This document shows, in pieces, positions 22,998 to 39,961 of a stretch of 40,897 nt of DNA (position 1 is the first letter of the stretch; the number at the start of each line of letters is the position of its first letter). The notes below the pieces were generated by a model. The model did no database searches. It had not been told where the DNA came from and worked only from the letters and a program-made list of their open reading frames with translations. Made by a program: the position numbers and the translations under genes. The DNA comes from an uncultured Microcaldota archaeon (GTDB lineage Archaea; Micrarchaeota; Micrarchaeia; Anstonellales; Bilamarchaeaceae). The stretch lies in the NCBI GenBank assembly GCA_903835385.1, contig CAILMQ010000054.1, positions 1-40,897 of the forward strand, read 5' to 3'.

Positions 22998-24113
22998 TCA
23001 GTTTTCCACGGGGGCGCTTTTAGCTGGTTTGTCGCCTTTAGCCAGCTTGCCGCTTTTGCCTGCCTCGCATTCCGAAGCGGCGTGGATATGCCCGTTCATC
23101 ATGGACGCCAGCTCCATGTAGGCGGTGAACGAAGGCGCGGCAGGGTCTTCAATGCGCATCACCGAAGCTGCCAGCCTGGCATGGCGTTCTGGGATGGTCA
23201 GGCCATCCACGACCTCCATTTCGGCATTCTCCCTGACGCTCACCAGCCCGCTGCCGGACCCGAAAACCTTGCTTGCACGCCTCTCGTCTTCCTGCGCATC
23301 GGACAGTGCCCAGAGCGACATGGCCTGGTGAAGCTTGTGGCCGACCTGCATGGACCTGAGCCCGCACTCGTCATCTGATATAAGCTTGTGGTTCGCCAGG
23401 TCCGTCATCAAGCTCCCGGCATGCCGGTATGCGTTATACAGCATGTTGAACGAAAGGAGCGCGTCGTTGTCCAGCACCTCGAACGAAATGGGCGGGCATT
23501 GCAAAAAGAACTTGGTCGGCTCGGGAATCAGCGACACTATCTTGGGGCTCGGAACTTCAGGTATGGCAATTACCGGTATGGCTATGAGCGGCATCAGCAC
23601 GATTGGCCCTGCCCCGGGAAGCATCCTATTGAGCGGAAGTATGATGCATGTGCATACTGAAAAGTAGCACTCCACTCCGAGCGTCCTGAGTACTGATATG
23701 GCAAGCGTGGTGAGATCGGTCGATTCCACCTGCCTTGCCATGCCTTCGTTGAATTGCACGGCACCGACCGATGCCACTTCCCCTGCGGTTTCCGGATAGT
23801 GCTTCCGCCAGCTGCCTTCCGGCGAATCGTTTAGGATGAACGGAACTTCGAGCTTGGACCTGAACCGGAAGCCTTCAGGGAGTTTGTCCTGCGGCAATAG
23901 GGTACGGATGGTGGTTTCTACTTTGTCCTTTTTGGAGGAGCCTGGGGCTATCTTCTGCACATGAGCCACGATTTCCGCGAACGCAGGCCCATCGCCCGAG
24001 AACGGCCCTTCAAGCTTCAGCCTGTCTGGCCCGAGCTGCCCCCACAGCGTCCTCATGTGCTCATTCTGCGCGCCCTTTTTCCAGACGGGCAGGAAGAAAA
24101 CTGACTTTCCCAT
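22998..24113 (-). CDS. Unrecognised protein, paralogue of the next gene (second in tandem)
   Basis: This 371-aa protein and its upstream neighbour align throughout. Shared blocks are MGKSVFxxP at the start, LEGPFS, TTLAISVLRTLGVEC, FEVLDNDALLS, then RSMQVGHKL and LWALSDAQEDE. Near the C-terminus is MNGHIHAASEC, a possible metal-binding HxH...C cluster. TDLTTLAISVLRTLGVEC resembles the helix of a transglutaminase fold, but its catalytic cysteine is absent. There are no TM segments, although PLNRMLPGAGPIVLMPLIAI is hydrophobic. ATG 24113 follows GTGAT and matches the paralogue's N-terminus. Function unknown. Confidence 0.65.
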   Translation of the reverse strand: MGKSVFFLPVWKKGAQNEHMRTLWGQLGPDRLKLEGPFSGDGPAFAEIVAHVQKIAPGSSKKDKVETTIRTLLPQDKLPEGFRFRSKLEVPFILNDSPEGSWRKHYPETAGEVASVGAVQFNEGMARQVESTDLTTLAISVLRTLGVECYFSVCTCIILPLNRMLPGAGPIVLMPLIAIPVIAIPEVPSPKIVSLIPEPTKFFLQCPPISFEVLDNDALLSFNMLYNAYRHAGSLMTDLANHKLISDDECGLRSMQVGHKLHQAMSLWALSDAQEDERRASKVFGSGSGLVSVRENAEMEVVDGLTIPERHARLAASVMRIEDPAAPSFTAYMELASMMNGHIHAASECEAGKSGKLAKGDKPAKSAPVEN

Positions 24114-24137
24114 AGTTATCACATGTTACTTTGTTTT

Positions 24138-25289
24138 TCAGTCCAAACGGTCCGGCGTTTTGCCCTTTTTATCGGCCACGCATTCCGAAGCAGGATGCAG
24201 GTGCCCGTTCATCATATGCATTGGCCCGCTCACGTACTCCTCGAACTGGGGCATGCAGCATGTGTGCCTGAAGGTGGCTTGTGTAAACTCAAGGAAGCCG
24301 GCCTGCGTGACGTCCATGCTCGGGGATGCGTCCATCATGCGCCTGAGTTCCTCGCAGAGCATCACCGAGGAGGCCATCTGGATATGGCGGCGGGGGTCGG
24401 TTATTATATTCACGGCACTCCGCCCTTTTGTCTCCCTGTAGCTCCTTGGCCCGCTCTTTTCGTCCAGGCCGAAAAGCTTCCTTGCGTAAGCGGCTTCCGC
24501 CTGCGCATCGGACAATTCCCAGAGCCTCGTGCCTTCGTAAAGCATGTGGCCGATATGCATTGACCTGAGCGCTGGCTCGTCATCTGACCCAAGCTCATGC
24601 CTCGCCATGTCCGCCATCAGCGCCCTGGCATGCCTGCACGCATCACGCAGCTTGATGAGCGAGAGCAGCGCGTCGTTATCCAGCACCTCGAAGAAGGCTG
24701 GCGGGTACTTTGAAAAAAATCCCACCTGGTTGTGGAGCAGGGTCGCGAACCCGAAATCATCGCCCGCAGGCAGGATTATCATGGGCATGGTCGTGGGGAC
24801 GCCGTCCGGTTGAAACGCGCTGCAGTGGGATATTGAGAAATGGCACTCCACGCCGAGCATCCTGAGCACGGACACTGCAAGCATGGTAATCTCGGTCGGC
24901 TCTGTCGGCCTTGCCTGGAACCCCTGGAATTCCACTGCCTGGGCGGATGCCACAGCTCCGGCGTTTTCCGGATACTTCCGCCACCCGCGTTTCCTGGGGC
25001 CGTCTACTATGAACGGTATTCCAAGCAGTGACCTTTCCAAAGGCAGGGCATCCTCAGGGAGCCAGTTCTGGGGCTTGAGGCTGGCCCTGGCCGCAGCCAG
25101 CACGGTGCTTTCGCTGGCGCGGGCTATTGCCTGCACGCAGCGCGCGAGGGTCTCCACCTCGCCTCCCCTGTCCGAAAACGGGCCTTCCAGGCTGAGGCTG
25201 TAGCGTCCGAGTTCTTGTTTCAGCCTGCGCATCTGGGCGGCTGCCATCGCCTTGCCAGTATCAGGCATGAGGAATACTGACTTTCCCAT
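24138..25289 (-). CDS. Unrecognised protein, paralogue of the preceding gene (first in tandem)
   Basis: This 383-aa protein is the upstream member of the pair. It keeps the same ordered blocks: MGKSVFLMP, LEGPFSDRG, EITMLAVSVLRMLGVEC, FEVLDNDALLS, RSMHIGHML, LWELSDAQ and MNGHLHPASEC. It has an extra Cys pair (FRHTCCMP) before the C-terminal motif. TATA at 25322-25313 and ATG 25289 imply a leader of only a few nt. The 24-nt gap to the second gene suggests cotranscription. No known family recognised. Confidence 0.65.
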   Translation of the reverse strand: MGKSVFLMPDTGKAMAAAQMRRLKQELGRYSLSLEGPFSDRGGEVETLARCVQAIARASESTVLAAARASLKPQNWLPEDALPLERSLLGIPFIVDGPRKRGWRKYPENAGAVASAQAVEFQGFQARPTEPTEITMLAVSVLRMLGVECHFSISHCSAFQPDGVPTTMPMIILPAGDDFGFATLLHNQVGFFSKYPPAFFEVLDNDALLSLIKLRDACRHARALMADMARHELGSDDEPALRSMHIGHMLYEGTRLWELSDAQAEAAYARKLFGLDEKSGPRSYRETKGRSAVNIITDPRRHIQMASSVMLCEELRRMMDASPSMDVTQAGFLEFTQATFRHTCCMPQFEEYVSGPMHMMNGHLHPASECVADKKGKTPDRLD

Positions 25290-37197: not shown

Positions 37198-37749
37198 TCA
37201 AGCACCGCCCAGCGCCCTGCGCGCGGCTTTTAATCGCTCCGCAACCGGCATTTCTTCCTTTATCCTGTCGAACATCATTGTCCTGCCTGCGTAGCTGAGT
37301 ATGTCCTGCTTGGATATTCCGGTCATTTCCGAAGCCAGGCCGAGCGAGATTCCCTGGGCGTACATGGTGGCTGCGGTTTTCAGCCTGCCCTTGGAAACCA
37401 AATCGCGGACAAATCTCGGGTCCAGTTTTTCAAGTTGCCCGATAGCCGTGACGATGCGCTTGAAGGAGGCGGACGCTGCGGCTTCCTGGCCCGTGCCGAG
37501 CACCTGCACCAGATCGCGCAGCTCGTCCTCTATTTTCCTGATGCGCGGGGCGGCGTCCGGGCCGAGGAACCGCGGCTTCGAGACTATCTTTGACAAGACG
37601 TAGGAAAGGACCGCAAGCTCGTAGGCCGTTGGAGTGAAATCCAGGCTCGCCTCTTTCAGCACGACGTCGTTTATTTTCCTCAGGCGCTTCTGGTTCCTGG
37701 CCCTGAATGCGTCGAGCACCTGGAAAGCCATGTCTTTCATTGATTTCAA
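37198..37749 (-). CDS. Unrecognised helical protein, first gene of the nuclease operon
   Basis: The 183-aa product is helical with a possible HTH near the C-terminus (EMTGISKQDILSYAGRTMM). GGTGG lies 4 nt before TTG 37749, which I prefer; ATG 37740 is also possible. The conserved place before PIN and XPF genes suggests a partner or regulator of these nucleases. Confidence 0.6.
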   Translation of the reverse strand: MKSMKDMAFQVLDAFRARNQKRLRKINDVVLKEASLDFTPTAYELAVLSYVLSKIVSKPRFLGPDAAPRIRKIEDELRDLVQVLGTGQEAAASASFKRIVTAIGQLEKLDPRFVRDLVSKGRLKTAATMYAQGISLGLASEMTGISKQDILSYAGRTMMFDRIKEEMPVAERLKAARRALGGA

Positions 37750-37789
37750 GTTGCCACCTATTTCCAAAATAGCCGGTCCATGGGAGAAA

Positions 37790-37849
37790 CGATAGGTTTT
37801 TAAACCCTATCATGATACTATCATGATAGTTGCGTGATCTTATCGCAAC
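37790..37849. promoter_or_regulatory. Promoter/operator with doubled palindrome
   Basis: GATAGG (37790-37795) and CCTATC (37806-37811) bracket the minus TATA (GTTTAAAAAC). Next come two identical self-complementary decamers TATCATGATA (37808-37817 and 37819-37828) separated by one base. Last are GTTGCG/CGCAAC arms (37829-37834, 37844-37849). This is a dense, cooperative-looking operator between the nuclease operon and the wHTH regulator. Confidence 0.65.
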
Positions 37850-37885
37850 GTTGTCAGGAAACCACTCAACAACGGGGTGACTTCG

Positions 37886-38314
37886 ATGGAAGATAACAGT
37901 GTTAACATATATAAGCTTAACACCGAACGCAGCCCGTTGCGCACAGAAATCAGGAACGACCTCGAGCAAAACATGCAGAAATTCAGCGACCCGGTCATCC
38001 TCGGAGAGCTTATTTTCAAGCTCCTTGAGGAAAGGGAGAACACGAACCGGATACTCAAGAACATACTCGCAAAGCTCGAGAACATCCAAAGCGGAACTGC
38101 CGCAGCGCCCGGAGGCGAGCCCCTCCTGCCCGAAGTGGACGAAAAAATCATGGAATTCGTCCGGGAGAGGGGGAAGATAAGCGCCGAGGACGTGCGGCAG
38201 CATTTCAGCTACAAGGGAAAGAACGCCGCGTGCGCAAGGCTGAACCGGTTATACGAGCTGAACCTGCTCGGCAAAAAGCAGGTCGGAAAGAAGGTCTTCT
38301 TCTTCCCGATGTGA
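37886..38314 (+). CDS. Winged-helix regulator with coiled-coil N-terminus
   Basis: The 142-aa protein has a helical N-terminus (PVILGELIFKLLEERENTNR, ILAKLENIQ) and a C-terminal winged helix (KIMEFVRERGKISAEDVRQH, then CARLNRLYELNLLGKKQVGK). GGGGTGA lies before ATG 37886. It may bind the adjacent double palindrome. The two structured RNAs follow directly, so they could be in its 3' UTR or separate. Confidence 0.72.
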   Translation: MEDNSVNIYKLNTERSPLRTEIRNDLEQNMQKFSDPVILGELIFKLLEERENTNRILKNILAKLENIQSGTAAAPGGEPLLPEVDEKIMEFVRERGKISAEDVRQHFSYKGKNAACARLNRLYELNLLGKKQVGKKVFFFPM

Positions 38315-38325
38315 TTCGTGCGTAA

Positions 38326-38439
38326 ATTGCACTAGTCTCGAAAAATAGGCAAGGCAAAGAACGGGCCGACTCCCGCCTCTCTGTTTATCAGGCCCGTTCT
38401 ACCTTGTTATCCTCCCACTCGAAAGGAGACTGGTGCAAT
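38326..38439 (+). ncRNA. Structured small RNA element, unit A
   Basis: An outer stem (38326-38339 with 38426-38439) has 14 pairs with one G-U. Inside, GGCAAGG (38348-38354) pairs with CCTTGTT (38402-38408), and AGAACGGGCC (38358-38367) pairs with GGCCCGTTCT (38391-38400). The 23-nt loop contains CTCCCGCCTCTCT. All non-Watson-Crick pairs are G-U on the plus strand and would be A-C on the minus strand, so the RNA is plus-sense. No coding potential. Confidence 0.7.
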
Positions 38440-38459
38440 CACACTAATCGACAAGATAT

Positions 38460-38528
38460 GGCAAGGCACGGACGGGCCCGCTCCCGCCTCTCTCATTATA
38501 GGGTCCGTTCCACCTTGTTATCCTCCCA
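38460..38528 (+). ncRNA. Structured small RNA element, unit B
   Basis: A homologue of unit A, 112 bp downstream. GGCAAGG (38460-38466) pairs with CCTTGTT (38513-38519), and GGACGGGCCC (38470-38479) pairs with GGGTCCGTTC (38501-38510). The loop repeats CTCCCGCCTCTCT exactly, and the 3' flank repeats ACCTTGTTATCCTCCCA exactly. Stem differences from unit A keep pairing through G-U. The outer 14-bp stem of unit A is not clearly present here. Confidence 0.7.
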
Positions 38529-38532
38529 TAAA

Positions 38533-38573
38533 AGAATCCTCTGACCAGGGGATTCTTAATTTTCTTTTTTAAT
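38533..38573 (+). terminator. Terminator after the tandem RNAs
   Basis: AGAATCC (38533-38539) pairs with GGATTCT (38550-38556), followed by a T-rich tail (TTTTCTTTTTT). It fits the 3' end of a plus-strand transcript carrying both units. Confidence 0.6.
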
Positions 38574-38590: not shown

Positions 38591-39961
38591 CTATGCGATT
38601 TCCCTGCCCGGCGCCGTGCGCCTGGAAGCGGAATCCGACGCGCCCGCCCTCCACGCGCTCCCGTATTTCTCCTGCATCTTCTCCTCTATGGAGCGCGCGT
38701 TTTCAATCGCAGCGAGCACGTTTTCCTTTGTGATTGATTGGTTCTTACTTACTGCAGCCAGGTCTCCGGCGAGCTTCACCACTCCACTTATCGCGCGCAA
38801 ACGCAGCGTGAGCGAGTCCGCCTCGCCATCGATTTCCTTTGCCATCTTTTTCGCATGCAGTGCGATTGAATCCACCGCGTCACGGCCCGCATGGGGAATC
38901 CTTTTGTCCCTTGTGATTTCCTGGGCCACGAACTGCGCGAGTTTCGCGCGGTTTATTTCATTGTCCGGCATTGACGAGTTCATCAGCACTTCGTAGCCGT
39001 CTCCGCTGATTCTGGAGCGCAATGCGGGAAGCACGGGCTGGAGGTCGTTGACGTTTATGGCGCCCACAAGTATGAAATCGCATGGAACCGCGTCCACGCG
39101 GACCGCCGCGCCTGACGATGTCGCGTTCCTGCCGCTTATTGGGAATGATTTATCCTGCATCGCGGTGAGCAGATGGCGCTGGAGATTGCCTAAAGTTGAC
39201 AATTCGTCTATGAAAAGCACGCCCTCATGCGCCTCATGCACAGCGCCTGGAATCACGCGCATGAACGGAGGGGTTCCCAGGTCCTTGTGTCCGCCGTACG
39301 GGTCGTGCGACACGTCGCCAAGGAGTTCGGTCTCGCTCGCACCGCTTGCCTGGACAAAAGGATTGCGCTTGAGCGGAAGCAGCACCTTTCTCCTGCTTTT
39401 CTTTCTCTGTTCTTCTTCCTTTTTCATTTCTTCTTCCGTGAGCATGATGACTTTGCCGCGAGCATCAACGGAATAAAAGACGCTCACGCCCTTTTGCACG
39501 GTCGCGAGACGCGCTCCGGGCGCCTCATAGGGCGGATATGCGCCGCATATTAAGCATGGAGTGCCGCGCTCGTCCAGAAGCATGCCGCATCTCCTGCAGC
39601 GTATGCCGAGGCGCTCTGCCAGGAATACCGGGACATCCTTTGAAGCGATTTCCTTCCCGACCCTCTCTGCGCCGGAATCCTTCGCGATCCTCGCCTCGTC
39701 CCGTATCTCGACGACCGGGCGCTCGGGCATTTGGGCGTTATCCAAAACGGAGACCTCCTGTTTAGGTGAGGGAAGAACTGACGCCATTGCGCGGGCGATG
39801 AGGGACTTGCCTGTTCCCGGAGGGCCGACAAGAAGAAGGTGCCGCCTCTGCAGCGCTGCGACGCGGGCGAGGTTCGCGGCATTGTCCTGGCCGATTATTC
39901 GGCTGAAGGGGTCTGTGGGGACCTGTATTTCCGCCGTGGACCCGAACCTGACTCCAGCCAT
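38591..39961 (-). CDS. LonB-like AAA+ ATPase lacking the protease domain
   Basis: The 456-aa protein follows archaeal LonB closely: FGSTAEIQVPTDPFSRIIGQ, Walker A (LLVGPPGTGKSLIARAMA), LLGDVSHDPYGG, Walker B (GVLFIDELSTLG), QDKSFPISGR, NDLQPVLPALRSRI and the sensor-2 region. The insertion that carries two TM helices in LonB is replaced by a CxxC...CxxC zinc ribbon (CRRCGMLLDERGTPCLICG). The sequence ends at the AAA+ lid, without the Ser-Lys protease. It therefore looks like a soluble ATPase or chaperone. ATG 39961 matches the family N-terminus. Confidence 0.82.
   Translation of the reverse strand: MAGVRFGSTAEIQVPTDPFSRIIGQDNAANLARVAALQRRHLLLVGPPGTGKSLIARAMASVLPSPKQEVSVLDNAQMPERPVVEIRDEARIAKDSGAERVGKEIASKDVPVFLAERLGIRCRRCGMLLDERGTPCLICGAYPPYEAPGARLATVQKGVSVFYSVDARGKVIMLTEEEMKKEEEQRKKSRRKVLLPLKRNPFVQASGASETELLGDVSHDPYGGHKDLGTPPFMRVIPGAVHEAHEGVLFIDELSTLGNLQRHLLTAMQDKSFPISGRNATSSGAAVRVDAVPCDFILVGAINVNDLQPVLPALRSRISGDGYEVLMNSSMPDNEINRAKLAQFVAQEITRDKRIPHAGRDAVDSIALHAKKMAKEIDGEADSLTLRLRAISGVVKLAGDLAAVSKNQSITKENVLAAIENARSIEEKMQEKYGSAWRAGASDSASRRTAPGREIA

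Follow-up and report, generated by a model that had tools for sequence, protein, structure and literature searches.

A C-rich-loop RNA element directly 3' of a winged-helix regulator gene in Micrarchaeota

Two tandem stem-loop RNA units lie directly 3' of a small winged-helix (wHTH) gene in a draft archaeal genome of 1.29 Mb, and a hairpin with a C-rich loop follows this gene, on its strand, in much of the class. We give about an even chance to the reading that we prefer, an RNA in the 3' UTR of this gene with a C-rich loop that a trans-acting partner recognises. More broadly, the sequence comparisons suggest that the RNA probably either controls the wHTH mRNA or is excised from it to act as a small regulatory RNA. 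The part of the genome that we analysed, a stretch of 40,897 nucleotides, is called the window below.

Micrarchaeota are tiny, mostly host-dependent archaea, and to our knowledge the use of RNA for regulation in DPANN archaea is almost unexplored. An element strictly tied to a near-universal regulator gene across much of the class provides a concrete, testable DPANN case.

Layout and fold of the tandem units

The host gene and the features of the RNA region are as follows.

37886-38314, plus strand: host gene of the RNA element, encoding a small winged-helix protein of 142 aa (a coiled-coil helix, then the wHTH)
38326-38339 with 38426-38439, plus strand: 14-bp outer stem enclosing unit A, from a fold of 118 nt
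38348-38417, plus strand: unit A, with stem P1 (38348-38354/38402-38408), stem P2 (38358-38367/38391-38400), C-rich loop (38368-38390) and tail AUCCUCCCA (38409-38417)
38370-38382, plus strand: conserved loop motif of unit A, CUCCCGCCUCUCU; 3' of this gene, most genomes of the order have CUCCCRC in a loop, as do genomes of several other orders
38458-38528, plus strand: unit B, with stem P1 (38458-38466/38513-38521), stem P2 (38470-38479/38501-38510), C-rich loop (38480-38500) and tail CCUCCCA (38522-38528)
38481-38493, plus strand: conserved loop motif of unit B, CUCCCGCCUCUCU, on the same basis as that of unit A
38532-38570, plus strand: terminal hairpin (38532-38557) with loop GACC, then a T-rich tract (38562-38570)

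The stop codon of the wHTH gene occupies 38312-38314, and the RNA units lie 25-35 nt downstream of it on the plus strand. Each unit consists of a P1 stem of GGCAAGG/CCUUGUU, longer in unit B, a 10-bp P2 stem, a C-rich loop of 21-23 nt that contains CUCCCGCCUCUCU, and a free tail, UCCUCCCA. When compared with dinucleotide shuffles, unit A folded at -27.1 kcal/mol (z -4.2) and unit B at -27.2 kcal/mol (z -2.8), and the two share 78% identity over 76 nt, which confirmed the tandem homologous stem-loops of the original prediction; their spacing is 111 bp and not the 112 bp given there. The two units would have arisen by lineage-specific duplication of one structured RNA element.

The same prediction held that the unpaired parts are perfectly conserved. 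Indeed, neither CTCCCGCCTCTCT (38370-38382 and 38481-38493) nor ACCTTGTTATCCTCCCA (38401-38417 and 38512-38528) differs between the two copies, but not all of this sequence is unpaired: the ACCTTG part of the 3' segment is a stem strand that covaries, with CCTG against GCAGG in two relatives, and only UCCUCCCA is free. The 14-bp outer stem proposed around unit A is present, and unit A folded together with it reached z -6.1 against dinucleotide shuffles (z -5.8 for the whole 261-nt region); no counterpart of this stem was found in relatives. The predicted terminal hairpin and its T-rich tail are there as well. A GACCAG-loop hairpin with a changing stem stands 3' of the unit in most of genus g12, and the terminal GACC hairpin with its T-rich tract may represent a terminator or the 3' end of the RNA.

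Homologues, transcribed strand and reach across the class

A covariance model built from the two units matched 12 of 43 genomes of the family at E<=0.1, the window's own genome and 11 other Micrarchaeota, so that the search suggested at the outset did yield homologues. All matches lie directly 3' of the same wHTH gene, except in G061, where the contig begins inside the array and the gene is cut off. The named records that carry the motif are Candidatus Micrarchaeota assemblies, one of them entered as Candidatus ainarchaeum and another as unclassified archaeon. The element occurs nearly once per genome, in many genomes as two or three tandem units.

Compensatory changes, whose absence would have spoken against the prediction, are present in the further homologues. 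Among 20 hand-aligned units, P1 was paired in 93% and P2 in 94% of cells, many pairs showing double changes. We counted covariation on a handmade alignment because in the first covariance model one unit had its outer stem shifted by a single base. In the resulting gap-free alignment of 16 units, which leans towards structure since it was made by hand with the variable-length linkers removed, 93.4% of cells were paired, double changes affected 9 of 20 pairs and the covariation score was 0.281; none of 500 shuffles matched it on any measure, and slid structures gave 1-3 pairs.

Wobble pairing had also been taken to reveal the transcribed strand. With two copies this argument is weak: in the minus-strand reading the fold of unit B disappears (z -0.07) whereas that of unit A persists (z -4.2). 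It becomes strong with 20 homologous units, among which about 52 G.U cells stand against 5 A.C cells, and we therefore conclude that the plus strand is transcribed. The expectation of a conserved CU-rich loop and tail on a structured plus-strand RNA was thus borne out.

In four genomes (G031, G034, G036 and G063), two extra hairpins joined by AAUC are inserted in the 3' strand of P1, and together they resemble a separate RNA domain that was inserted here and shows compensatory changes of its own. At the corresponding loci (L029, L028, L025 and L097, respectively) AAUC is conserved and ACUUG repeats flank the extra hairpins.

Beyond the original prediction, the analysis brought out the strict linkage to one regulator gene and a class-wide distribution. 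Among the 84 genomes of the order, 71 encode the wHTH protein; across the class, 263 of 301 genomes have relatives of it (94 of the 96 better ones). The DNA 3' of its stop codon was read in 111 genomes. Within 350 nt downstream, CYCCCRC occurs in 63 of 71 genomes of the order, including all 37 readable genomes of the window's family and most other families. For 110 genomes of the class, CTCCCRC lies within 300 nt of the stop codon in 69, where shuffled sequences gave 4.6 on average and never more than 11; ACCTCCMRC occurs in 59 of 110 (shuffles: mean 0.6, maximum 3). A blind search of 301 whole genomes with TTCACCTCCCACA returned 20 matches, 18 of them just 3' of the wHTH gene and on its strand, as against 5 matches for the reversed pattern. 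A second motif, GCAAGGC, often followed by GACCA, is present within 250 nt in 55 of 110 genomes, where 1.3 were expected.

The loop motif falls mostly in a predicted hairpin loop, with an unpaired probability mostly of 0.9-1.0, on stems that have no common sequence (for example AGAACGGGCC, GGACCAGAA, GGGGGCGC, GAGGGGUGGGUCAAA and CGGCAUGCCC). It also drifts among lineages, through CCUCCCRCC, ACCCCCAC, CCCACC and CCCCC. Read by eye, families f12-f17 have GGCCAUAAUUCACCUCCCAC or close forms, f19 has CACCCCCACA, and f22-f28 have GUUCAACCCACC, in many cases along with a hairpin carrying CCCACC; several f20 and f21 genomes show only a short hairpin with a C-run in its loop. Loci L128 and L130 of family f6 have GUGAGGGGUUUCCCCCUCACCUCC in place of the hairpin, immediately 5' of the GGTGA site of the next gene, which may be a different regulatory form.

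At gathering cut-offs, Rfam recognised only 5S rRNA and a tRNA in the window, and 16 homologous loci searched at E<=1 returned two weak minus-strand matches below cut-off and nothing relevant. We likewise found no description of this RNA in the open-licence literature, in agreement with the first impression that it is undescribed. Evidently a hairpin can retain its loop while replacing its whole stem many times, and elements of this kind are missed by sequence searches and absent from Rfam. The element was not found in the viral contigs searched, and it therefore does not look phage-borne.

Transcript context and possible modes of action

Scored with a simple TATA pattern, 3 of 49 genomes have a TATA-like site 5' of the RNA and 31 of 49 have one 5' of the wHTH start, compared with 5 of 49 for a coding control stretch. 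Since promoter-like sites are missing between gene and RNA, the two appear to be co-transcribed, and the RNA most likely shares the wHTH transcript as its 3' UTR.

In the model that we prefer, the wHTH gene encodes an autoregulated winged-helix protein, and its mRNA would carry the element in the 3' UTR. The C-rich loop (CCUCCCRCC, elsewhere CCCACC or C-runs) and the CCUCCCA tail would serve as single-stranded docking sites for a trans factor, a C-rich-binding protein being likelier than a ribosome-binding site, and tandem copies would offer two such sites. Docking at the loop or tail would determine how stable the wHTH mRNA is, where its 3' end lies or how it is translated. We are less sure of this docking role than of the shared transcript, and that one factor reads all lineage forms of the loop is an assumption.

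Several results bear on this model. The element holds a fixed position on the same strand, directly 3' of one conserved gene. Comparison of the element with its own 5' leader and coding sequence disclosed no pairing beyond controls. A C-rich-loop hairpin with the motif has a single occurrence each in 400 kb of G067 and in 200 kb of G032, and none elsewhere in these stretches; it is therefore not a general gene-end feature. Tests for targets covered the same stretches, 200 kb of G123 and the window. The proposal that the RNA acts on GGAG/GGTG ribosome-binding sites found no support in the window's lineage: GGGAGG, CGGGAG, GCGGGA, GGCGGG and AGGCGG occur in none of 183 upstream windows from the 200 kb of G032, which has the same loop as the window and in which the ribosome-binding site is AGGTG/GGTGA. 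Complements of 12 nt of the loop, allowing up to 2 mismatches, are rarer in the element's own genome than those of a reversed control (190 against 275). With ribosome-binding-site masking unsupported in the window's lineage, and own-mRNA pairing and a general gene-end hairpin unsupported as well, what remains is a gene-linked 3'-UTR element with a loop read in trans. Our first choice for the reader is a protein; the other candidate is RNA, after release of the element as a small RNA.

The second of these options defines the strongest alternative, a 3'-UTR-derived small RNA, which we regard as possible but tentative. Processing would free the hairpins from the wHTH mRNA, unless a promoter that escaped detection drives them, and loop and tail would pair with G-rich stretches of other mRNAs in the manner of LhrC of Listeria, so that regulator and small RNA would form one circuit. 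A single seed-like loop is conserved while the stems change, and the near single-copy C-rich loop suits a processed small RNA equally well. The idea of action at ribosome-binding sites survives in the distant family f5. Its loop, UUCACCUCCCAC, includes UCACCUCC, which resembles the 16S tail, and is complementary to AGGTGA sites in 13 of 350 windows, against 1.0 expected; such a match is to be expected anyway, because ribosome-binding sites match the 16S tail. Against a small RNA stand the absence of loop-core complements from the 183 upstream windows, the lack of enrichment in the genome and the fact that no conserved target was found.

ACCTTGTTA matches the complement of the universal 16S 1492 region; this lead was rejected because the sequence forms one side of a stem and varies together with the other side (CCTG/GCAGG in G032 and G033). 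The 16S 3' end, where the anti-Shine-Dalgarno sequence would be read, is missing from this genome's assembly.

The anatomy of the RNA comes very near that of LhrC of Listeria monocytogenes, whose CUCCC repeats in loop, linker and terminator loop bind G-rich start regions; the LhrC RNAs are free small RNAs with their own promoters and shown targets, and exist in several homologous copies, part of them in one cluster (PMC4132741). Both systems have homologous copies, a CUCCC-type loop on its stem, a single-stranded stretch rich in C and U, and a terminator hairpin, and CU-rich single-stranded motifs stand in loop and linker here too. Unlike bacterial, free LhrC, the element described here is archaeal, tied to one gene and without promoter-like sites, and its terminator loop reads GACC instead of UCCC. 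Complementarity to ribosome-binding sites is lacking in the window's lineage (G032 and the window) and present in f5 through similarity to the 16S tail. At most, then, the RNA may work like LhrC, by analogy; it fails as a member on the promoter, the TATA-like site being as rare as in coding sequence.

Csr/Rsm protein-binding RNAs consist of repeated hairpins with loops carrying GGA. They resemble the present element in having repeated hairpins with a conserved loop motif as a candidate protein site, and differ in that the motif here is C-rich; a comparison of Csr/Rsm RNAs with LhrC has been made (PMC4132741). Another archaeal structured RNA with an unpaired segment and a regulatory link to a transcription factor is sRNA162 of Methanosarcina mazei, which masks a ribosome-binding site with its unpaired linker (PMC3510493). 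That linker is its variable part, and sRNA162 is known from close relatives only, whereas the loop here is constant and the element class-wide. Bacterial small RNAs derived from 3' UTRs, for example that of the glutamine synthetase mRNA (PMC9731577), are likewise structured RNAs in the 3' UTR of a gene; they are released by processing, whereas such release is hypothetical for the present element.

Less probable than a small RNA, and in our view unlikely, is that the element merely terminates transcription or stabilises the 3' end of the wHTH mRNA and is not recognised by its sequence. The element does come right after the stop codon, a U-tract follows it in 37 of 69 cases, and the last hairpin of the window has a T-rich tail. 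Such a function would not need a conserved 7-13-nt loop on unrelated stems, and loops of this kind are not general at gene ends of the same genomes; moreover, the units are duplicated, and it is the separate GACC hairpin that precedes the U-tract. A riboswitch or attenuator in the leader of the next gene is highly improbable: in several families that gene does lie on the same strand shortly 3' of the hairpin, with a GGTGA site to which UCACC could pair, but in the window the next gene is convergent, and elsewhere the downstream gene varies (hydrogenase-maturation-protease-like, AAA ATPase or other) while the upstream gene is constant.

Taken together, the results partly support the interpretation first given to the region. 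A wider idea, which we find rather doubtful, is that the near-universal wHTH factor and the C-rich-loop RNA in its 3' UTR form one ancient, Micrarchaeota-wide two-part control unit, in which the loops that in some lineages copy the 16S 3' tail (UCACCUCC) could compete with the ribosome for mRNAs or tail-binding factors. If this idea is right, no conserved regulatory RNA specific to a DPANN lineage would precede it in the literature that we searched.

The host gene and its neighbours

Three further features surround the wHTH gene and the RNA.

37201-37767, minus strand: divergent gene of 189 aa that no family matches above cut-off; many relatives encode a similar protein beside the wHTH gene
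37809-37851: repeats TCATGAT..TCATGAT..GCGTGAT..TCGCAAC, about 11 bp apart, forming a palindrome; the same array lies 5' of the gene in most genomes of the class
38591-39961, minus strand: convergent neighbour, an AAA ATPase (Mg-chelatase/MoxR-like) with a zinc-ribbon-like CxxC insertion, in which no protease domain was seen

The wHTH protein matched Penicillinase_R with an E-value of 8.5e-4, below cut-off. Its AlphaFold model has a pLDDT of 74 overall and 80-91 over the wHTH, and the PDB matches are general DNA-binding wHTH proteins of MarR/ArsR type. The TCATGAY-like array, iteron-like in look, sits between the wHTH gene and the divergent gene and is the probable operator of the wHTH protein. 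Because of the winged-helix model and this upstream array, the protein is probably an autoregulated DNA-binding regulator. A similar AAA ATPase gene adjoins the wHTH gene, in either orientation, in many families of the order. Elsewhere in the window, two adjacent open frames on the minus strand (22998-25289), of 374 and 383 aa, have similar starts around GKSVF and look like paralogues.
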